This document shows, piece after piece, positions 9,716 to 19,359 of a DNA stretch of 32,756 nt; within the stretch, counting starts at the first letter, position 1; each line of letters begins with the position of its first letter. The stretch covers positions 1 to 32,756 of the forward strand of contig JAPOPA010000396.1 in the NCBI GenBank assembly GCA_026713145.1, read 5' to 3'. The notes under the pieces were generated by a model. The model searched no databases. It was not told where the DNA came from and was given only the letters and a program-made list of their open reading frames with translations. A program made the translations under genes and the position numbers. The stretch is from Chloroflexota bacterium. GTDB lineage: Bacteria; Chloroflexota; Dehalococcoidia; Lucifugimonadales; VXLM01.

Positions 9716-10009
9716 ATGATCGTTGTGGTCGAAAGTGCCACATTCAAGAAATGGGTACGCGGCTTAAGGGACCGGCGCGCCGTTGCTCGGATCAACGCTC
9801 GACTCAGGAATATTTCACTGGGCAACTTCGGAGACAGCAAGCCCATAGCAGACAAAGTATCTGAGATACGCATCCACTACGGACCGGGGTACCGTCTCTA
9901 CTTTGCCCGCGAGGGCAATACCTTCGTAGTACTGCTCTGCGGCGGTGTGAAGGGCAGCCAGCGGCGGGACATCGAACGCGCGAAACGGCTAGCCGACGAT
10001 TGGAGGTGA
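9716..10009 (+). CDS. RelE/ParE-superfamily toxin (HigB-like, HI1419 group)
   Basis: A 97-residue toxin of the phage Gp49-like/HigB group. Family features are FKKWVRGLRDRRAVARINARL (9-29), GDSKPI near 41-46, the core EIRIHYGPGYRLYF (52-65), and a C-terminal GSQRRDIERAKRLADDW helix. These toxins cleave ribosome-associated mRNA. Arg/Tyr/Lys residues suited to that role are present in the core and after the last strand. The toxin gene comes first, the usual order for HigBA-type modules, and the antitoxin starts 3 bases after its stop. The ATG at 9716 coincides with the predicted transcription start. Confidence 0.9.
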   Translation: MIVVVESATFKKWVRGLRDRRAVARINARLRNISLGNFGDSKPIADKVSEIRIHYGPGYRLYFAREGNTFVVLLCGGVKGSQRRDIERAKRLADDWR

Positions 10010-10012
10010 ATC

Positions 10013-10300
10013 ATGCCTGAAACGTTTACCCGATGGGATGTCACAGACTATCTGCGCACCAAAGAGGATGTCCGTTACTACCTTGAAGCCGCTGCGGAAG
10101 AAGATCCCGGTGATGGAAGCCTGATTCGTGCCGCACTGAACGATATAGCACGCGCTCAAAACATGAGCCAGTTGGCCCGAGAAGTCGGGATGACCCGCGA
10201 GGGACTCTACAAAGCGTTGTCGGATAAGGGCAACCCGACATTTGCGACGGTTCTTCGCATTACCCGCGCGTTGGGGATGCAACTGCGGATTACGGCATAG
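10013..10300 (+). CDS. HTH antitoxin of the addiction module (HigA-like, HI1420 group)
   Basis: A 95-residue antitoxin. The N-terminus (FTRWDVTDYLRTKEDVRYYLEAA) is the toxin-contacting segment typical of the HI1420 group. Residues about 46-95 form an XRE-type helix-turn-helix (MSQLAREVGMTREGLYKAL; NPTFATVLRITRALGMQL). A GGAGGTGA site at the end of the toxin gene fixes the ATG at 10013. It probably binds the palindrome at 9690-9707 to repress the module. Its last 11 bases overlap the convergent methyltransferase gene. Confidence 0.92.
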   Translation: MPETFTRWDVTDYLRTKEDVRYYLEAAAEEDPGDGSLIRAALNDIARAQNMSQLAREVGMTREGLYKALSDKGNPTFATVLRITRALGMQLRITA

Positions 10301-11099
10301 GATTCTCCGATTTGCGCGCTGTGAGGATGCCGTTCGTCTTCCGGATGACGAACTTGCCGTCGCAGGTGATTCGATTTCGGACGCGCCGGCGGATCTCCGA
10401 TGCTTGCCGATCGTTCAGCTTGTGTCCGGTGGAGTTTATGTAGTCTATGACCGGGCCGGCGTCGGTTACGTGTAGAGCGTCCGGGTAGCGGCCAACCGTA
10501 ACCTTTGGAAACACCTCCCGCAACTCTCGTTCCCCACCCTCCAGCCTGAAGCGGCTTTCAACACGATCGAATTCCGCACGGGCGGCCGTATCCAGCATGT
10601 CCCACAGCTCGCTCATATTGTCCCTGCCGTTCGTAGCGGCGAACAGGAGACCACCCGACTTCAGCACGCGGTGTATCTCAACGATGCCCTTCGCCCGATC
10701 AGGTACGTGGTAGAGCATGTGATTAGCGACGACACCGTCGAATGTGGCTTCGGGATACGGGATGCTCTGGGCGTCGATCACTTCGTAATCGAATTGTCTC
10801 CCGGAACCTTTGAGATTCGATCCGGCCTCCTCGATCATCCCTGGCGAGAGGTCGGACAGGGTGATCCTCCAATCCGGTGGAATGCGATCACGGTTCTCGA
10901 CCCACACGTCACCGCGGCCACAGCCAAGCTCCAGAATTCGAGCATCACCGGGAAGGTCGGTCAGGTGGTCGAAGACCCACCTGTGCCAGCCGTAGCCGTT
11001 CGTGCTGAATAGCCTGTGGAGCCGGATACGTGCGGAGAGATTCGACGAGTCTTTGTACTGGTCGTCAACGAGGTAATGCTGGTCTGCTACCCTGTCCAC
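10290..11099 (-). CDS. Class I SAM-dependent methyltransferase
   Basis: A 269-residue Rossmann-fold methyltransferase with motif I ILELGCGRGD (55-64), motif II-like DLSPGMIEEA and a UbiE/Methyltransf_11-like stretch (FDGVVANHMLYHVPDRAKGIVEIHRVLKSGG). The GTG start at 11099 lies two bases after the stop of the small basic protein at 11102-11248, suggesting coupling. The C-terminal half, with charged helices and KFVIRKTNGILTARK, probably shapes the acceptor site. The substrate cannot be inferred from sequence or context. It is convergent with the antitoxin gene, with an 11-base overlap. Confidence 0.9.
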   Translation of the reverse strand: MDRVADQHYLVDDQYKDSSNLSARIRLHRLFSTNGYGWHRWVFDHLTDLPGDARILELGCGRGDVWVENRDRIPPDWRITLSDLSPGMIEEAGSNLKGSGRQFDYEVIDAQSIPYPEATFDGVVANHMLYHVPDRAKGIVEIHRVLKSGGLLFAATNGRDNMSELWDMLDTAARAEFDRVESRFRLEGGERELREVFPKVTVGRYPDALHVTDAGPVIDYINSTGHKLNDRQASEIRRRVRNRITCDGKFVIRKTNGILTARKSENPMP

Positions 11100-11101
11100 G
11101 A

Positions 11102-11248
11102 CTATTTCTTATCGTCTTCGGCTCGCTCCGCCTTGCGCCGGATGATCTCCTGAAGCCGGCGAACGCTCTGGCCGGATACGCCCATGTGGCGGCTCTTGCG
11201 GCGTTTCTGTTCGCGGCGTTCTGCTTTGGTCGGCTGTTCCTCAGTCAT
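11102..11248 (-). CDS. 48-residue highly basic small protein
   Basis: From the ATG at 11248 the minus strand encodes 48 residues ending at a TAG at 11102-11104. About a third are Lys/Arg (TKAERREQKRRKSRHMG; SVRRLQEIIRRKAERAEDDKK). The pattern of a basic helix, an HMGVSG turn and a second amphipathic helix suggests nucleic-acid or ribosome binding, but no named domain is recognised. It ends two bases before the methyltransferase GTG, so the two are likely one transcript. Codon use is like that of its neighbours. Confidence 0.6.
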   Translation of the reverse strand: MTEEQPTKAERREQKRRKSRHMGVSGQSVRRLQEIIRRKAERAEDDKK

Positions 11249-11388
11249 GGGTCACTATGATACCGGAACCGATAGGGGAAAGTGCCGGCATGGGATATGC
11301 GGTCACCTTCACGTGCATCGTGTAGTATAGGGGCCGAGCGTGACAGGGTGAGGAGAGTTGCGACGTGAGACTATTGAGTTCGTGAGAC

Positions 11389-12852
11389 ATGAGACAACGA
11401 CGCACGATCTACCATAACGACGCACGGCACTATTACCTGTGGCTGTGGGACCCTCCGATGCGGATGAGGGACGCATGGCGGCCCATCGATGAGGTTGCCG
11501 GGACGGCGGTGGACACCTTCAGCTACTGCGTTGAGCGAGGGGACGGGGCCTTCTACCCGACGAAGGTCGGGATGGTGTTCGGGTCGGACAAGCAACCTTT
11601 CACCAATCCCATCTCATGGCACTCATGGCACGCTATGCAGAGCCTGATGGAGCGGGGACTCGACCCGCTGCAGGTGCTCATCGACCGGGCGCACGAGAAG
11701 GGGATGGAGTTCTGGGCCGATCTGAGACTCGGCAGCTATGGCGGCATGGAGCCGAAGCTAAAGCTGGAGAACGGGGGAAGGTACTTCGCCGAGGATACTG
11801 TCAGAGACCACCTGGCGGCGATCGCACGGGAGCTTGTTCTGGACTACCCCTCAGACGGCTTGGAGCTGGACTTTGCCATAGCAAACGGCAACCGTCCTTC
11901 GTACCTGAAACCGGAAGACGTGAAGACGTACACTCCCGTCATTACCGAATGGGTCGCAGGCCTCGCCGACGCGGTGCGGAGCCGGGACGGAGGCGGCACC
12001 ATTGGCGCCAGGGTCTATCCTGTCGAGGAACTGAACCTTCGCCAGGGGCTGGATGTGCGGAGTTGGCTGGAGGAGGGGATCGTAGACTTCGTCGTTCCCT
12101 TGATGTACGAGTACAACCGTCTTGACCCGAACATGCCGATGGACTGGCTCATCGAGGCGGCGCACGAGAATGATGTCTCGGTCTACGGAATGCTCCAGCC
12201 GACGGTCCCCTCTCAGGAGGTCGCGCTGGGGCAGGACAACAGGGTGTACGCGTCTATTGAGCAGCTACGCGGTGCCGCCGCGAGCTTCTGGTCGCGAGGA
12301 GTGGACGGCCTGTACACGTGGTTTCTGAGGTGGCCGCACGGCGAAACCGAGCGCGCGTTCCTGTCGGAGATGGGCGATCCCGACCTGATCGAGGAGAAGG
12401 ACAGGACGTACTTCGTGCTGCGGCGGTCGGGTGAGCAGGACAACCCGGCCTACGGAGCGCCGCTGCCCCTCGAGATACCACAAGCCGATTCCGACAAGCT
12501 GTACGAGATACCGTTCTACGTGGGCGACGACATCGCCGAATCGGACCGCATTTGCTCGGTGGTATTGAGCATCAAGGTGATGAACCTCATCATGGGTGAC
12601 AGGCTGACGCTGACGCTCAACGGGCAGTCGATTGCAGACGAGCCTGTCACTCGGGACTTCGCGCACAACACGCCCCACATCGCCCCGCGTGGACTGGATC
12701 TGCAGTACCACCTGCGGGACGTCCTGCCGCGCAAGGGCTGGAACACGCTCGAAATATCGCTGGACGAACGGCCCGATCTCATGGCGGGCGGCATCACCGT
12801 CGATCAAGTCGAACTGCGGGTGACGTACAGCCCATACCCGTCGGTGAGGTAG
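11389..12852 (+). CDS. Glycoside-hydrolase-like barrel protein, paralogue 1
   Basis: A 487-residue protein. The N-terminal ~330 residues read as a (beta/alpha)8 barrel related to the 'family 10-like' hydrolase group: TIYHNDARHYYLW at the start, VLIDRAHEKGMEFWADLRLGS (about 99-119), DGLELDFA (E159, D161) and VDFVVPLMYEYN (233-244). The C-terminal ~140 residues (from about DKLYEIPFYVGDDIA) look like a beta-sandwich of the kind that binds sugars. Acidic residues at strand ends could be catalytic. No signal peptide is visible, so it should act in the cytoplasm. It is clearly paralogous to the gene at 13116 and forms an operon-like run with it. The substrate is unknown; 'hydrolase' is inference. 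Confidence 0.75.
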   Translation: MRQRRTIYHNDARHYYLWLWDPPMRMRDAWRPIDEVAGTAVDTFSYCVERGDGAFYPTKVGMVFGSDKQPFTNPISWHSWHAMQSLMERGLDPLQVLIDRAHEKGMEFWADLRLGSYGGMEPKLKLENGGRYFAEDTVRDHLAAIARELVLDYPSDGLELDFAIANGNRPSYLKPEDVKTYTPVITEWVAGLADAVRSRDGGGTIGARVYPVEELNLRQGLDVRSWLEEGIVDFVVPLMYEYNRLDPNMPMDWLIEAAHENDVSVYGMLQPTVPSQEVALGQDNRVYASIEQLRGAAASFWSRGVDGLYTWFLRWPHGETERAFLSEMGDPDLIEEKDRTYFVLRRSGEQDNPAYGAPLPLEIPQADSDKLYEIPFYVGDDIAESDRICSVVLSIKVMNLIMGDRLTLTLNGQSIADEPVTRDFAHNTPHIAPRGLDLQYHLRDVLPRKGWNTLEISLDERPDLMAGGITVDQVELRVTYSPYPSVR

Positions 12853-12856
12853 CTGG

Positions 12857-13129
12857 ATGGACTGGCTGAAAGCGTTGTTCGGGCAGAATGACGACCCAGA
12901 CCGTCTGGTACGCGTCGGCGGGATGATGCCGGAGCCTGAAGCGGAAATGTGGGCGGGCGTGCTCAAGGGCGAGGGAATTGGAGCGGCGGTACAAAATGAG
13001 GGTTATCCTCCCTATACCAGCTCGATGAGTTCCAGTTACAGCGTCTGGGTGAGATTTCGCGACGCCGAGGCCGCGGAGCGGATGATAATGGGCAGACCGC
13101 GCGATGGAGGGCCGCATGAGACGACGTAG
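12857..13129 (+). CDS. DUF2007-like small protein
   Basis: A 90-residue protein starting 4 bases after the stop of barrel paralogue 1 and overlapping barrel paralogue 2 by 14 bases. The segment LVRVGGMMPEPEAEMWAGVLKGEGIGAAVQNEG followed by YSVWVRFRDAEAAERMI resembles DUF2007 proteins ('putative prokaryotic signal transducing'), which have a compact ferredoxin-like fold with an N-terminal 'where to look' helix and a C-terminal strand-helix. The function is unknown. Its place inside the hydrolase cluster suggests a regulatory or binding role for the same substrate. Family assignment is moderate. Confidence 0.7.
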   Translation: MDWLKALFGQNDDPDRLVRVGGMMPEPEAEMWAGVLKGEGIGAAVQNEGYPPYTSSMSSSYSVWVRFRDAEAAERMIMGRPRDGGPHETT

Positions 13130-14600
13130 GACGATCTATCACAACGACGCTCGACACTCGTACCTGTGGTACTTCGAGCCTCCGATGCGGCTTGAGGACG
13201 CCTGGATACCGATAGACGAGGTGGCCGGAACGGCGGTTGACACGTTCAGCTACTGCGTAGAGCGTGGCGACGGGATGTTCTACCCCACGAAGGTGGGAAA
13301 GATGTTCTCCGTCGAGGATGGGAAGGCGCAGTCGGCACATAACTATGAGTGGCGGGCGGCGGCGTGCATGCTCAGCCTCATGGAGCGCGGTCTCGACCCG
13401 CTTCAAGTTCTCATCGACCGGGCGCACGAGCACGGTATGGACTTCATCGCCGACCTTCGCCTGCAGCGGCTTGGCCTAATGTACCCGGAATCGGAGCTCG
13501 AAAACGGCGGCGGGGGATGGGCCGAGGAACGTGTCCGGGACCTGAAGTTCGACATCCTGCACGAGCTCGTCACCGAATACCCGACCCAAGGTGTGGAGTT
13601 GGACTTCACAGCCGCCTTCGGTGGTGGCAAATACTTCTATTTCGCCGACGGTGGCACGCCTGAAAACACCGCGACAATGACTGAGTGGGTGCGGCGAGTC
13701 TCGGAGATGGTTCGCTCGCGACCCGAAGCTCCTGGCGTGGTGGGAGCGCGGATCTTCCCGACTGAGAAGGGCAACCTAGATCAGGGTCTGGACGTGCGGA
13801 CGTGGCTGAACGAAGGGTTGCTGGACTTCGTCGTGCCGGTGGCGTACATCTACACCGTCCTCGATCCGAATATGCCGTTCGACTGGGTTGTCGGGCCGGC
13901 GCACGAGTCCGGCGCATCCGTGTACGGCTTCCTGCAGCACCACCTGCAGGACGAAGTCGTAGGCGCAAATGGGCGGCTCTTCCCCAACCTCGAGCACTTT
14001 CGTGCGGCTGCCGCCAACTACTGGGAAAAGGGCGTGGACGGCCTGTACACGTGGATGATGGACTGGCCTCTTGGAGACGCGGAGCGAAACATCCTCACCA
14101 TGATTGGGTCGCCGGAGCTTGTACGAGGGAAGGACAAGCTCTACGCCGTCTCTCGCTCATACGACGGAGCGGAGCGGTTCGACTACCGTCACCACTTGCC
14201 GTACGACCTCTGCCCGCCCCTTCCGACGGCGGCACACACGATCCCGTTTACCATCGCCGACGACATCGCAGCGGAGGACAGCAGGGTCGGCGAGACGAAG
14301 CTGCGCATCTATCTGTCGAACGTCGTAGCCGGTGATCGGTTCAAGGTTGCGCTCAACGGGCGTTCGTTGGCGGACGAGACGATGAGGCGGGTCTGGAAAA
14401 AGAACCGCGACGCATATCCGCACACCAACCAGCGAAACCACTGGCTGGAGTTCGATCTGGTCGACATCGTGCCGCATAAGGGCGAGAACCTCTTGGAAGT
14501 GTCGCTCGAAAGCCGGCCTGAGGGCCTGACGGGCAACGTCACGATTGCGGAGGTAGAGGTGGAGGTGCGGCATAACCCGTATCCGGCGGGTCTTGAGTGA
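13116..14600 (+). CDS. Glycoside-hydrolase-like barrel protein, paralogue 2
   Basis: The ATG at 13116 follows GGAGG by 5 bases and aligns with the start of paralogue 1 (both begin M-R-x-R-R-T-I-Y-H-N-D-A-R-H); an ATG at 13104 is less likely. The protein has 494 residues with the same architecture: barrel motifs VLIDRAHEHGMDFIADLRLQ, QGVELDFTAAF (D163) and LDFVVPVAYIYTVLDPNMPFDW, then a C-terminal beta-sandwich-like domain from about HTIPFTIADDIAAED. The two paralogues agree best around the barrel strand ends and differ in the loop after strand 3 (here GGGKYFYFADGG), which points to different but related substrates. No signal peptide is seen. Confidence 0.75.
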   Translation: MRRRRTIYHNDARHSYLWYFEPPMRLEDAWIPIDEVAGTAVDTFSYCVERGDGMFYPTKVGKMFSVEDGKAQSAHNYEWRAAACMLSLMERGLDPLQVLIDRAHEHGMDFIADLRLQRLGLMYPESELENGGGGWAEERVRDLKFDILHELVTEYPTQGVELDFTAAFGGGKYFYFADGGTPENTATMTEWVRRVSEMVRSRPEAPGVVGARIFPTEKGNLDQGLDVRTWLNEGLLDFVVPVAYIYTVLDPNMPFDWVVGPAHESGASVYGFLQHHLQDEVVGANGRLFPNLEHFRAAAANYWEKGVDGLYTWMMDWPLGDAERNILTMIGSPELVRGKDKLYAVSRSYDGAERFDYRHHLPYDLCPPLPTAAHTIPFTIADDIAAEDSRVGETKLRIYLSNVVAGDRFKVALNGRSLADETMRRVWKKNRDAYPHTNQRNHWLEFDLVDIVPHKGENLLEVSLESRPEGLTGNVTIAEVEVEVRHNPYPAGLE

Positions 14601-14774
14601 GCGGAAATTTGAGACCGTTGAGTGGAGAGTAGGGGCGAGGTAGGCGCCCGTTAGGTGGGCCGATACAGCGGAATTGGTCTCTCATATGTGATTCTTGTGT
14701 TGTCGGGCGAACTGGGTGCCTCGTGAAGTTACGGGACTGAGTGTGAAAACTCGGAAGCTCAGGAGTTGTCTGTC

Positions 14775-17294
14775 ATGTCGGACTATGAGCCTATCGACCT
14801 ATCGGAACTCTGTAACGCCGGGGCGGACTTCCTGCCCTCGGAGGACCCGCCCGCCATCGGAGCGCAGACGTTTCGTGGCCTGCCGTTTCAGGTGGGCAGG
14901 ACGGGCAGTCCTAACTGTTTCATACGGCTGAGCGAGGGCGACGACCCAGTTAGCATTACGGTCGGGGCGAAGGCCCGGCAGGTCGTCTTTGCTCACCGGC
15001 TCCTGGAGACCGACGTTCCGCAGGGCGGCATGGTGGGCAACCACGTCGCGGACTATGTCTTTCGCACGTCGACGGGCAACGCCGTAACGGTTGCCATTCG
15101 CGAACGGTTCCAGATATCGGCGTTCGGGCCGCCGTACGCTGCCGGGACGTACACCGGCGCTCCTTACGCTCCCTATCAGGCTGTCCCCGACCAAAAGGCC
15201 ACACTATATCCACCCTACGAGGGCGAGTACAGCGACGCGGGCAACAGGCAGACCGAGGCGATGCAGGCGGATGCACGGTGGTACTACCTGTGGGCATGGG
15301 AGAACCCGGACCCGGACGACACTATCGAATCGATAGAGATCACACCAAGGGGCGGGCCCTTCATCATCGCTGCTATAACGCTGGGAAAGGTTGATGAGCA
15401 CCCCCTCTATCGTGAGGCGAACCGTGCGGTAAAGATCGAGATTACCGACCCGGACTTGGCCTCCCAGCCGTTCGATGTCGAGGCGGAGGTCGACCGGGGC
15501 GAGACGACTTATGTCTACCCTCTCCCCAAGGCGAGCGCGGACGAGTTCGTCGAAGGCCCGAACAAGGGCTGGGGCGAGCGGCAAAACGAGACGTCTAGCC
15601 CGTCGTATGTGGAGGTGTCTGCCACGCCGTCGGCCATTCTCAGCGTGAAGCAGGGCGGGACCACCCTTGCACGGGCGAAGTGGGACGCCATCGTGTCGAG
15701 CGGTTCGGTTGCCGGTCCTCAAACGCGCATCGAGCTGATCGACGCCGCCAGGAACTGGGTGAATGTCACGGTTGTGGACGACGACACGGGGCAGCCGGTC
15801 CCCTGCCGCATCCACTTCAGATCGCCGGACGGCGTACCGTACCAGCCACACGGCTTTCACAATCACGTCAACTCAAATCTCGATACGTGGCACAAGGACG
15901 TGGGTGGCGACCTGCGCCTCGGCCAGATCACATACGCCTATATCGACGGCACGTGCCAGGGGTGGCTGCCACGAGGCGAGGTGATCGTCGACATAGCGCG
16001 TGGGTTCGAGTACGAGCCGCTTCGCGAGAGGGTGCAGATCCAACCCGGTCAGCGACGACTCAACCTCCGGCTGAAACGTTGGACGAACATGAACGAACGG
16101 AGATGGTTCAGCGGCGATTCGCACGTCCACTTCCTTACGCCGGATGGCGCCCACCGCGAGTCACAGGCCGAAGACCTCAACGTCGTCAACTTGCTCCAAT
16201 CGCAGTGGGGCAGCCTGTTCACTAACACGGAGGACTTCACGGGCGCGCCAAGCGTCTCCCGCGACGGGAGCAACTTCGTCTACGTCGGACAGGAGAACCG
16301 GCAGCACGCCCTAGGACACATGATCCTCTGGGGGCTCAAACAGCATGTCATGCCGTGGTGCAGCGACGGACTCGGTGAGGCGGAACTGGCAGGAACGATG
16401 GATACCAACCTGAGCGACTGGGCCGACCGCGCTCATGCGCAGGGCGGCTTCGTCATCAATCCGCACTTCAACAGCCCGAACGCCTACGGGGAATACGCGA
16501 CCCTCATCGCCACCGGGCGAATGGACGCCATCGAGATGAAGAACCTCTCCGCGCAGCGGTACGGCGACTACTACGGCTATCTGAACTGCGGGTACCGCCT
16601 GCCAATGGTCAGCGGCACCGACAAGATGAGTAGCGACATCCCCGTCGGCGGGCATCGGGCTTACGTCAACATCCCCGAGGATGAGGAGTTCACGTACGAA
16701 ACTTGGTGCCGCAACGCAGTGAAGGGACGGACGTTCATCAGCGGCGGCCCGATGATCGGCTTCTCTGTGGACGGCAGGGAGATCGGCGACACCGTCGAGC
16801 TTTCCGGCGCGGGCACCGTCGAGGTCAAGGCATGGGCCGAGAGCATCTTCCCGATCCACAGCCTCGAAATCCTGAGCGGAGGGCGCGTTGTAGCCTCCGC
16901 CGAGTCCCGGCAGGGAACGCGGCGGCTGGAGCTAAGCGAGCAGATCGCCGTGGAAGGTCATACGTGGCTTGCGGCTCGGTGCGGCGGCCCCGGCTACTAC
17001 GACAACCGCATAGACTTCGGAACGAGTGGCCACGAGGTATACGCGCACACATCGCCCATCTACGTCGCGTGCGGAGGCGAGTGGCAGATGTTCGACCGGC
17101 GAGTGGCGGACAATATACTTACGTCGGTCGAGGGGACGCTAGCCTATATCCGTGGAAACACCCTCCAACATGATCCTGAGCGTACTACGCATCATCACGG
17201 CGAAGACGACCACATGGCCTACCTGGAGCGTCCTTTCATCGAGGCGCGCGAGGCTGTGCACAAGCGAATGCACGAGATGGGGTTAGCGCACTAG
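14775..17294 (+). CDS. CehA/McbA-family metallohydrolase with PHP domain
   Basis: The ATG at 14775 lies 9 bases after AGGAG, giving 839 residues. About 430 residues of beta-rich sequence come first. A PHP-type metallohydrolase domain follows: FSGDSHVHF (H450, H452), INPHFNSP (H564) and MVSGTDKMSS (D616), the metal-binding set of CehA/McbA proteins. CehA and McbA hydrolyse carbaryl-type carbamates, but most family members have unknown natural substrates. The C-terminus carries a beta-sandwich (EIGDTVELSGAGTVEVKAWAE) and an HHHGEDD-containing tail. No signal peptide is seen. It follows the two barrel hydrolases on the same strand after a 174-bp gap and may act on a related compound. Confidence 0.88.
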   Translation: MSDYEPIDLSELCNAGADFLPSEDPPAIGAQTFRGLPFQVGRTGSPNCFIRLSEGDDPVSITVGAKARQVVFAHRLLETDVPQGGMVGNHVADYVFRTSTGNAVTVAIRERFQISAFGPPYAAGTYTGAPYAPYQAVPDQKATLYPPYEGEYSDAGNRQTEAMQADARWYYLWAWENPDPDDTIESIEITPRGGPFIIAAITLGKVDEHPLYREANRAVKIEITDPDLASQPFDVEAEVDRGETTYVYPLPKASADEFVEGPNKGWGERQNETSSPSYVEVSATPSAILSVKQGGTTLARAKWDAIVSSGSVAGPQTRIELIDAARNWVNVTVVDDDTGQPVPCRIHFRSPDGVPYQPHGFHNHVNSNLDTWHKDVGGDLRLGQITYAYIDGTCQGWLPRGEVIVDIARGFEYEPLRERVQIQPGQRRLNLRLKRWTNMNERRWFSGDSHVHFLTPDGAHRESQAEDLNVVNLLQSQWGSLFTNTEDFTGAPSVSRDGSNFVYVGQENRQHALGHMILWGLKQHVMPWCSDGLGEAELAGTMDTNLSDWADRAHAQGGFVINPHFNSPNAYGEYATLIATGRMDAIEMKNLSAQRYGDYYGYLNCGYRLPMVSGTDKMSSDIPVGGHRAYVNIPEDEEFTYETWCRNAVKGRTFISGGPMIGFSVDGREIGDTVELSGAGTVEVKAWAESIFPIHSLEILSGGRVVASAESRQGTRRLELSEQIAVEGHTWLAARCGGPGYYDNRIDFGTSGHEVYAHTSPIYVACGGEWQMFDRRVADNILTSVEGTLAYIRGNTLQHDPERTTHHHGEDDHMAYLERPFIEAREAVHKRMHEMGLAH

Positions 17295-17478
17295 GGGAGC
17301 GCTCTTCACACCTTCTCCACTGATGCCGCTATGGAAGATTGCCAAGAATAGTCTTGAAAGTCGGCTGGTTTCGTTCCCCTTGTGGTAAAATTCTGCGCGA
17401 AAACGCCGCTCCGACAGACCGCAATTTGGGTTCTCAGGTGTTGGAGCGAGCAACTAGACTCCGAGGCTGTGTCTTTGT

Positions 17479-19359
17479 ATGCGTTTCTTAATTGATGCTT
17501 GGCGTCGGATAGGCACGCGCCTGTACATAGCGTTGGGTTTTGCAGTGCTCCTGACGCTGGTGTCGAGCATGGTCGGCATCTACTACTTCGAACGAAGCGG
17601 TGACCTGAACTTCCAGGTGAGGTCGGAGTCGGTGCCCGTGCTGGAAGCGGCGTGGTCGGCCGCGCGCGAGGGAGAGCGGATACGCTCGATAGGGATCGGA
17701 CTGCTTGGCGAGCCGGATGCCGCTCCTGCCGCCTCACAGCGAGAATCCGTAGAGGCAGTCCTTGGGCGGCTGGAAGCTGACCTGGGCGTGGTCGGTTCCG
17801 CTCCCGCCCTTTCATCGGACGCACAAGAGGTATATGACGCCGCTTTCAACTTGGCGAGGGTCGTCGATGACCTGACACTGAATCGAGGATTCTTGCAGGA
17901 AGCAAACGCGGTAGCCTCCGACCTTGATACTCGTGTCGGAGTAGCCTCAACGACTGACGGGGCGAATCTGCCCGCGCTGGCCGTCCTGAGCCGGATGTCG
18001 TCAGCAGGCGATGAGACGGAGTTGGACGGCCTGTGGGACGAATTCGCAGGTCTTTCGGTGACCGGCGGCGTTGACACTTCCCTGGGTGAAGGAGTGTACG
18101 TCGCGCGGGGACAGCAACTCGCGCTTGCCTCCAAGACCGCAGAGTTGGCAGTCGCATTTGACGGCGCCGAGGCTACCTTGAGTAGCTCCGTGACCCGCCT
18201 GCTGGAGGGCGCCCAGGCCGAGTCTTCGGAAGCTCTGGAGTCCTCCGTCCGCAGTTTCGACGAGGGAAGGCTTCTGCTGGCGCTGATCAGCGTGGCCAGC
18301 GTGATAGCCGCTACTCTCGCGGCTTGGCTATGGGTCGGCAACGGCTTGGTGCGACGGCTCTCCCGGTTGTCGGAGCGCATGCGAGGGATGGCGGCCGGAG
18401 ACATCGAGACGCCGATTCCCGAGGTGAGTCGCGACGAGGTCGGCGAGTTGGCCGGCACCCTGGAGGTATGGCGGCAACAGGCACTGGAGGTCCAGCGCCT
18501 GAACCTCGTCGAGCGCCTGTACGGGGAACTGCGCGAGGCAAACGCGGAACTGGAACGAATGCAGGAGCGTCTGATCGCCCAGGGGAAGCTCGCCGCCCTG
18601 GGCGAGTTGGTGTCCGGCGTAGCTCACGAGATCAGCAACCCCCTGAACTTCGTCAAGAACTTCACGGAAGGCTCGCTGGAGTCGTACAAGGAACTTACCG
18701 ACGTCTTGAACGACTACCGGAGTGAGATGAAGGAAGACGATGTTACTTTGCTGGACGAGATCAGTGAAGAACTCACCGACAGCTTGGAGAGGGTGCACTC
18801 CAATGGGACTCGAGCCTACGCCATTGTGGAGCGAATGAGCGGCTTGGGCGTCGTAGGCGGAGAACTTGTCCCAACCGACCTGAACAACGTGCTGCGGTCG
18901 GCCGTTCAGACAGGATGTGACACTTTCCGGGCAAATTGGGATGACTACGTGGTCCAGCCGGAGTATGACCTTGATTGCTCGGTCGATAGGGTCCCGATGG
19001 TGGCGCAAGACTTCAGCGAGGCTGTGGTCAACCTCATAACGAATGCCTGCTACGCTATGCGGCAGAAGCAAGAGACCGAGGGCGACGGCTACGAACCGGT
19101 CTTGACCGTTTCCACTCGCCAGGTCGACGGAGACGTGGAAATTCGGGTCCACGACAATGGCACCGGAATCGCGGACGACGTGATCGGGCGAATATTCGAC
19201 CCGTTCTTCTCAACACGCGAGGGCATCATGGGCGCCGGACTGGGCTTGGCGATCTCGGCGGACGTGGCGCGGCGAGCCGGAGGCAACTTGTCGGTCGATT
19301 CGGTGCACGGCGAGTACGCGGAATTCACCCTGAGTATGCCGACCGAGAAGAATGACTGA
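17479..19359 (+). CDS. Membrane sensor histidine kinase (HAMP-HisKA-HATPase)
   Basis: A 626-residue kinase. The first membrane helix lies at about 15-37 (LYIALGFAVLLTLVSSMVGIYYF) and the second at about 264-290, enclosing a periplasmic sensor of about 225 residues rich in Ala/Ser/Glu, probably a helical bundle. HAMP follows at about 290-345 (RMRGMAAGDIETPIPEVSRDEVGELA), then a coiled coil. The dimerisation domain carries LVSGVAHEISNPLNF with phospho-acceptor H383. The ATPase part shows VNLITNACYAM, HDNGTGIADD and GAGLGLAIS. All key residues look intact. No response regulator is in the window, so it is an orphan kinase here. The gene precedes the symporter on the same strand by 171 bases, allowing but not proving a link to solute uptake. 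Confidence 0.93.
   Translation: MRFLIDAWRRIGTRLYIALGFAVLLTLVSSMVGIYYFERSGDLNFQVRSESVPVLEAAWSAAREGERIRSIGIGLLGEPDAAPAASQRESVEAVLGRLEADLGVVGSAPALSSDAQEVYDAAFNLARVVDDLTLNRGFLQEANAVASDLDTRVGVASTTDGANLPALAVLSRMSSAGDETELDGLWDEFAGLSVTGGVDTSLGEGVYVARGQQLALASKTAELAVAFDGAEATLSSSVTRLLEGAQAESSEALESSVRSFDEGRLLLALISVASVIAATLAAWLWVGNGLVRRLSRLSERMRGMAAGDIETPIPEVSRDEVGELAGTLEVWRQQALEVQRLNLVERLYGELREANAELERMQERLIAQGKLAALGELVSGVAHEISNPLNFVKNFTEGSLESYKELTDVLNDYRSEMKEDDVTLLDEISEELTDSLERVHSNGTRAYAIVERMSGLGVVGGELVPTDLNNVLRSAVQTGCDTFRANWDDYVVQPEYDLDCSVDRVPMVAQDFSEAVVNLITNACYAMRQKQETEGDGYEPVLTVSTRQVDGDVEIRVHDNGTGIADDVIGRIFDPFFSTREGIMGAGLGLAISADVARRAGGNLSVDSVHGEYAEFTLSMPTEKND

Follow-up and report, generated by a model that had tools for sequence, protein, structure and literature searches.

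A probable lineage-specific expansion of barrel hydrolases from the GH156 exosialidase lineage, with remodelled active sites, in Dehalococcoidia

The window, a stretch of 32,756 nucleotides covering positions 1 to 32,756 of contig JAPOPA010000396.1 from a Chloroflexota bacterium (class Dehalococcoidia; assembly GCA_026713145.1), carries a block of four genes encoding two paralogous barrel hydrolases, here called GHa and GHb, a small DUF2007-like protein between them and a CehA/McbA-family PHP-type metallohydrolase. GHa and GHb are probably cytoplasmic glycoside hydrolases that arose as the GH156 exosialidase lineage underwent a large, lineage-specific expansion, and whose active sites have been remodelled. 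EnvSia156, the founding member of GH156, is an inverting exosialidase in which Asp14 is the general base and His134 the general acid, and in which Arg129, Arg202 and Asn346 hold the substrate carboxylate (PMC6811678). No published report of the expansion was found in the literature searches made, and searches linking GH156 with sponges returned only papers unrelated by title.

The Pfam family GHL10 (PF02638) matched GHa and GHb with 27.1 and 22.3 bits, under its gathering cut-off of 27.9, and all seven family members that were scanned with Pfam (GHa, GHb and five paralogues) fell below it or had no match; cut-off-based Pfam annotation would therefore miss these seven and probably most other members. 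The NCBIfam scan gave no match for GHa or GHb. Single-sequence phmmer searches against solved structures returned EnvSia156 (PDB 6rzd) as the best match of both proteins (E = 1.8e-8 for GHa and 6.5e-7 for GHb). A profile of 47 family members matched the same structure with E = 2.9e-52 over residues 12-385, followed by Cwp19 (PDB 5oq2), which we take to be a GHL10 member, at E = 3.6e-16. A predicted structure of GHb, modelled from a 12-sequence alignment, was also placed closest to GH156 by Foldseek (E = 5.9e-21, template-modelling score 0.44); its mean predicted local distance difference test score (pLDDT) of 60, with residues 1-84 under 50, means that the active site is not mappable on it. 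GHa and GHb share 49% identity over 493 aligned positions (E = 2e-164), so their similarity is not due to chance. Their description in the sequence-only reading as paralogous barrel hydrolases is borne out, the barrel being of the TIM type. A C-terminal sandwich had also been proposed, for which there are strands in the low-confidence GHb model, but the EnvSia156 profile alignment ends at residue 385. That none of the four genes has an obvious substrate was a reasonable view from sequence alone, but the profile, phmmer and the tree place GHa and GHb as descendants of the GH156 exosialidase lineage.

Before counting, 10 of the 54 family hits were left out of set A3. Asp11 of GHa and GHb was placed on Asp14 of EnvSia156 by the HMMER alignment and two MAFFT alignments alike, and the equivalent position is Asp in 68 of 70 aligned rows, the other two being truncated there. 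Arg129, Glu197, Asp199 and Arg246 are the further residues conserved between EnvSia156 and the family. Within clade II, to which GHa and GHb belong, the Arg129 equivalent is kept in 34 of 34 rows and that of Arg246 in 33 of 34, and Asp11, Glu161, Asp163 and Asp237 (GHb numbering) are invariant in the rows covering them, as had been expected of the acidic residues of the barrel. At least 20 of the 22 rows of clade III have lost the Arg129 equivalent. The derived clades have gained a conserved Arg13 and His14 beside Asp11; in the alignment His14 falls opposite His17 of EnvSia156, whereas the canonical paralogues have gaps there.

The remainder of the EnvSia156 site has been altered. Position 134 is Gly in both GHa and GHb, so that the general acid is missing, and its loop is shortened: the stretch between the Arg129 and Arg177 equivalents has some 22 residues fewer than that of EnvSia156, and Trp164 faces a gap. 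From the carboxylate triad Arg129 is kept, and Arg202 and Asn346 are gone. Across 40 derived rows, His was found at position 134 in one, and Arg202 and Asn346 in none. The other seven rows, of which five come from the window's genome and two from genome G036, are canonical in appearance, with Arg129 in all seven, Arg202 in six, Asn346 in five and His at position 134 (three rows) or 133 (four rows). GHa and GHb should not be filed as GH156 sialidases, because the acid and two ligands are missing, and judged by their residues they are probably not sialidases of N-acetylneuraminic acid (Neu5Ac).

In the tree, for which 10 hits under 400 aa were left out, EnvSia156 groups with six canonical rows (Shimodaira-Hasegawa-like approximate likelihood-ratio support 98) and GHa and GHb fall inside the derived clade. 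A recent tandem duplication was rejected as the origin of the pair because each is closer to relatives in other genomes. The window's genome (3.46 Mb, 92% complete) yielded 45 matching segments, which resolve into 34 family places on 26 contigs, some of them cut by contig ends. The family is present in 10 of the 40 genomes examined, the window's own included, and in 7 of 294 genomes of a class-wide sample at E <= 1e-6, where at most five candidates were scored per genome. In the nine genomes from which related loci come, the number of matches ranges from 1 to 36; the single match in the lowest of these, on a 4.7 kb contig under a Bryobacterales label, may result from a binning error. No family match was found on plasmids, and among viral contigs query A2 gave 14 pattern matches, none of them a relative, the A3 query being too divergent for this purpose.

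The 10 genomes of the order that hold the family (GH-positive) were compared with the 30 that do not (GH-negative). Matches to BNR_2 had a median of 14 in the former and 1 in the latter (p = 1.9e-6), and matches to the DHDPS/NanA superfamily a median of 15.5 and 2 (p = 2.7e-6). PF00296, used as a control, had medians of 8 and 17.5; these luciferase-like monooxygenases are numerous in most GH-negative genomes, some with counts of at least 42, and number 3-13 in GH-positive ones, so that the two expansions run opposite. Two family copies in the window's genome have such a gene close by: a canonical one has a DHDPS match (Pfam, 5.9e-56) at a distance of 1.4 kb, and a derived one a BNR_2 match at 0.6 kb. 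An operon of family copies with aldolases or BNR_2 genes is not claimed, as the hits listed included no further near case. On two contigs, family copies are flanked by SBP_bac_5 proteins whose starts resemble those of lipoproteins.

Taken as glycosidases, which their sequences make a reasonable probability, the paralogues would cut terminal acidic or modified sugars, a different one each, from oligosaccharides that the cell imports; Asp11 would assist the attack of water, and a new acid, for which the conserved Asp42, His14 or Asp163 are candidates, would replace His134. The pattern of kept and lost residues suggests that these bacteria diversified the acidic or modified sugars that they cut. 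Several points weigh against this interpretation. The NanA cut-off was passed in none of the 40 genomes, and the TIGR00683 hits are superfamily hits; the model also has matches in all 14 control genomes. Genome size differs too, with a median of 2.9 Mb for GH-positive and 1.85 Mb for GH-negative genomes (p = 0.005), and the genome counts, in which relatedness within the order is uncontrolled, are not independent. Few copies in the window's genome lie near an aldolase or BNR_2 gene (one each, among the hits listed). EnvSia156 sits on a long branch of the tree, and the seventh canonical row, L054, in which both Arg129 and His134 are kept, has a basal place on the derived side. Import and cytoplasmic action of GHa and GHb would follow solely from the missing signal peptide. 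Its absence, already proposed by the sequence-only reading, agrees with the first barrel strand lying at the very start of both proteins as aligned to EnvSia156, and is a reading of the sequence made without a signal-peptide program. Finally, with the known acid and two carboxylate ligands gone, the proteins could have a function other than that of a glycosidase.

It is unlikely, although the best of the alternatives, that GHa and GHb are still true sialidases acting on Neu5Ac, Kdn or another nonulosonic acid, with the carboxylate held by Arg115 and other residues and with a different acid. The retention of the Arg129 and Arg246 equivalents across clade II and the genome-level co-expansion with sialidase-fold BNR_2 proteins and NanA-superfamily aldolases are in keeping with this, as is the report that His134 variants of EnvSia156 fell "~30%" on an activated substrate rather than losing activity completely (PMC6811678). 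However, the acid and two of the three carboxylate ligands are gone, the loop bearing His134 and Trp164 is shortened, and no genome reached the NanA cut-off. That the expanded clade is catalytically degenerate, its members being sugar-binding or scaffold proteins with the barrel kept, is very improbable: the loss of the acid and of two ligands, and in most of clade III of Arg129 too, would fit, but invariant Asp11, Glu161, Asp163 and Asp237 would be unlikely had catalysis been abandoned, and Asp14 variants of EnvSia156 are inactive (PMC6811678).

The sequence-only reading had regarded the block as a dedicated pathway for one unusual compound; two barrel hydrolases, a small regulatory protein and an esterase or amidase that depends on metal would then act in series. 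All four of its genes are present as open reading frames. The GHb frame opens at 13104 (498 aa), and its start was set at 13116 (494 aa) because orthologues start MRRRRTIYH or MRQRRTIYH; the PHP-type frame, 14766-17294, gives 842 aa from a TTG, and the ATG at 14775, with AGGAG upstream, is most plausibly its start and gives the 839 residues previously counted. The small gene begins 4 nt after the end of GHa and, with the GHb start taken as 13116, shares 14 nt with GHb, in agreement with the overlap reported before. Its product was called DUF2007-like, a name that reflects a weak Pfam match (PF09413) of 16.1 bits, under the gathering cut-off of 25.7. A promoter and terminator scan of 11000-17600 found one of each, not above the number in shuffled sequence.

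In loci L031 and L032, whose records bear the titles Chloroflexota and Dehalococcoidia, the order GHa, DUF2007-like gene, GHb, PHP gene and histidine kinase is kept, the proteins being 82-91% identical, which is in favour of a pathway. The DUF2007-like protein was found in 4 of the 40 genomes, all of the same genus, with no match in the other 36; its gene adjoins GHa in all four congeners, and the whole block, with GHb and the adjacent PHP gene, is present in three. In the fourth, G001, the small gene and the GHa orthologue share 4 nt, there is no GHb orthologue, and an Ldh2-like gene (identified by reading the sequence) comes next. GHa and the small protein are therefore the conserved core, and the latter may be a specific partner or regulator of GHa. 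Against a pathway, GHa and GHb occupy only 2 of the 34 family places in the genome, G001 combines the pair with a different gene, GHb occurs without the other three genes in loci of other phyla, 174 nt separate GHb from the PHP gene, and no family member lies near other PHP copies at the five loci examined. We regard a single-compound pathway as improbable, slightly more so than retained sialidase activity, and as a weaker reading than remodelled glycosidases derived from GH156. Co-occurrence in related genomes, which had been suggested as a check, gave a divided outcome: the whole block fails outside the genus, but a PHP homologue is present in 10 of 10 GH-positive and 5 of 30 GH-negative genomes (15 of 40 in total; Fisher p = 3.5e-6, or p = 7.7e-5 with one genome per genus, relatedness being uncontrolled in both).

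The assignment of the last gene to CehA/McbA was supported by NCBIfam model NF038032, with 144.1 bits against a curated cut-off of 80; the Pfam scan gave no match for this protein. A PHP-like domain spans approximately residues 440-765, preceded by about 440 aa without a named domain, and contains a GDSHVH motif at 447-452 that is intact in seven of seven rows, rows L025, L066 and L070 having been left out of the count. The HxH motif binds metal in PHP domains. A structure model from three sequences (mean pLDDT 32.6) was not used. The window's genome holds one further near full-length copy (contig C369) and two contig-end pieces, residues 2-618 (C150) and 619-839 (C369), which are perhaps halves of one gene; no GH family copy lies on C150 or C369. 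The CehA/McbA protein could be a metal-dependent hydrolase of the same broad lifestyle, not an obligate step with GHa and GHb. CehA/McbA homologues were seen near BNR_2 genes on contigs C5 and C70 of genome G034 and at ~922-937 kb of contig C1 of G036, the latter also near a DHDPS-family match. Both on C70 of G034 and on C150 of the window's genome, the gene before the PHP gene is 2-hydroxyacid dehydrogenase-like.

GHb was found without GHa, the DUF2007-like gene or the PHP gene in metagenome-assembled genomes of other phyla, of Latescibacterota type (seven loci, L028-L030 and L033-L036, four with 8 kb on both sides and three cut by contig ends). The window's GHb shares 80-82% protein, 79-80% nucleotide and 61-62% third-position identity with the five full-length copies and 79-81% protein identity with the partial ones (L034, L035). 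Its identity to congeners is the same (82% protein, 79-80% nucleotide, 60-61% third positions), while GHa shares 88-91% protein identity with its congeneric counterparts, and this comparison of sequences indicates that GHb moved horizontally between phyla. Transfer could have gone either way, as subfamily members are also present in 32 of 64 genomes of the phylum of Latescibacteria chromosome OX638377 (matches at E <= 1e-20; GHb-type top scores in six genomes, two of these on partial genes). The genomes to which records titled Gemmatimonadetes, Gemmatimonadaceae or Gemmatimonadota (L029, L033-L035) belong fall within this phylum in the genome grouping used, so that older labels may mislead. 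A carbon-nitrogen hydrolase gene adjoins GHb in five of the other-phylum loci, identified by Pfam at one and by near-identical sequence starts at the others.

Feature coordinates are collected in Table 1. Upstream of the block, 9716-10009 (+) encodes a Gp49-like protein (PF05973, just under cut-off) and 10013-10300 (+) an HI1420-type antidote (PF21716, 1.2e-23), probably a toxin-antitoxin pair. Elsewhere in the window's genome, a GH32 gene between two family copies (L079:189-4288, contig C32) was the only Pfam-named glycosyl hydrolase among 25 neighbours scanned, one family copy has a Fic-domain gene directly at its start (L084:1993-4448, C13), and a small contig, C216, carries besides a family copy the gene of a cadherin and fibronectin-III protein (L074:5474-7363). 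Domains of the latter kind are reported as sponge-symbiont features.

Table 1. Positions in the window of the block genes, the 3' neighbour and the proposed catalytic codons
Feature	Position	Strand	Description
GHa	11389-12852	+	487 aa; GH156/GHL10-type barrel hydrolase, remodelled clade
DUF2007-like small protein	12857-13129	+	90 aa; weak Pfam match
GHb	13116-14600	+	494 aa; GH156/GHL10-type barrel hydrolase; orthologue common to several phyla
CehA/McbA-family PHP-type metallohydrolase	14775-17294	+	839 aa
HAMP/HisKA histidine kinase, neighbour 3' of block	17479-19359	+	also adjoins block in L032 and L031 (L031 copy cut by contig end)
GHa Asp11 codon, in YHNDARH	11419-11421	+	alignment equivalent of EnvSia156 general base Asp14
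GHb Asp11 codon	13146-13148	+	alignment equivalent of EnvSia156 Asp14

The window's lineage is probably sponge-associated, as judged from the record names of near relatives (IRC4, COS4, SB0661) together with the cadherin and fibronectin-III protein; the key to these names is presumed. We infer the label "SAR202" from the title "Dehalococcoidia" (L032) and the PF00296 counts. Sponge SAR202 genomes have been described as being without carbohydrate transport and degradation pathways, though some carbohydrate-active enzymes were counted (PMC6306507). Enrichment and lateral transfer of GH33 have been reported for sponge symbionts, in a study that places fibronectin-binding proteins in other Chloroflexota, not Dehalococcoidia (PMC8163846). 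A broader proposal, offered tentatively, is that the GH156-derived radiation, co-expanded with BNR_2 proteins and neuraminate-lyase-superfamily aldolases and crossing phyla, constitutes an unrecognised system for scavenging diverse acidic (ulosonic-acid-like) sugars in probably sponge-associated Dehalococcoidia and in Latescibacterota, the remodelled sites representing new substrate specificities. If so, its Dehalococcoidia side would be part of the lineage that the earlier sponge SAR202 study described as without carbohydrate degradation.

Should GHa and GHb be remodelled glycosidases, an uncultured, probably sponge-associated lineage would hold some 30 glycosidases missed by the Pfam cut-off, as in all seven members scanned, a mechanistic family would have radiated into new specificities with one catalytic residue kept, and the view of sponge SAR202-type Chloroflexota as devoid of carbohydrate degradation would have to be re-examined. 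With canonical and remodelled paralogues in one genome, the family would also be a source, open to testing, of new sialidase-like enzymes for use in glycan analysis.

Among known systems, the large paralogue expansions described in SAR202, of flavin monooxygenases, enolases and ring-hydroxylating dioxygenases (PMC6946804), are alike in marking part of a Dehalococcoidia order, but concern different enzyme families, and PF00296 counts are opposite here; in the main text of that paper no word starts with "glycos-", "sialidase", "carbohydrate" or "hydrolase". Known CehA/McbA metallohydrolases (NF038032) share with the PHP protein the above-cut-off match and GDSHVH, whereas the latter has an extra N-terminal region of ~440 aa; known CehA acts on carbamate pesticides (PMC8292978). 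GHL10 and Cwp19, the weak Pfam match and the second profile match, belong to the same barrel superfamily, Cwp19 being a peptidoglycan lytic transglycosylase (PMC6811678). The closest relation is to EnvSia156 of GH156 (PDB 6rzd, 6s00 and 6s04; PMC6811678, PMC6254351), with which GHa and GHb share the homologous catalytic barrel, the Asp14 base, Arg129, Glu197, Asp199 and Arg246, and from which they differ in being without His134, Arg202, Asn346 and Trp164, in a shortened loop after strand 3, in an unaligned C-terminal module and in belonging to a hugely multiplied family.

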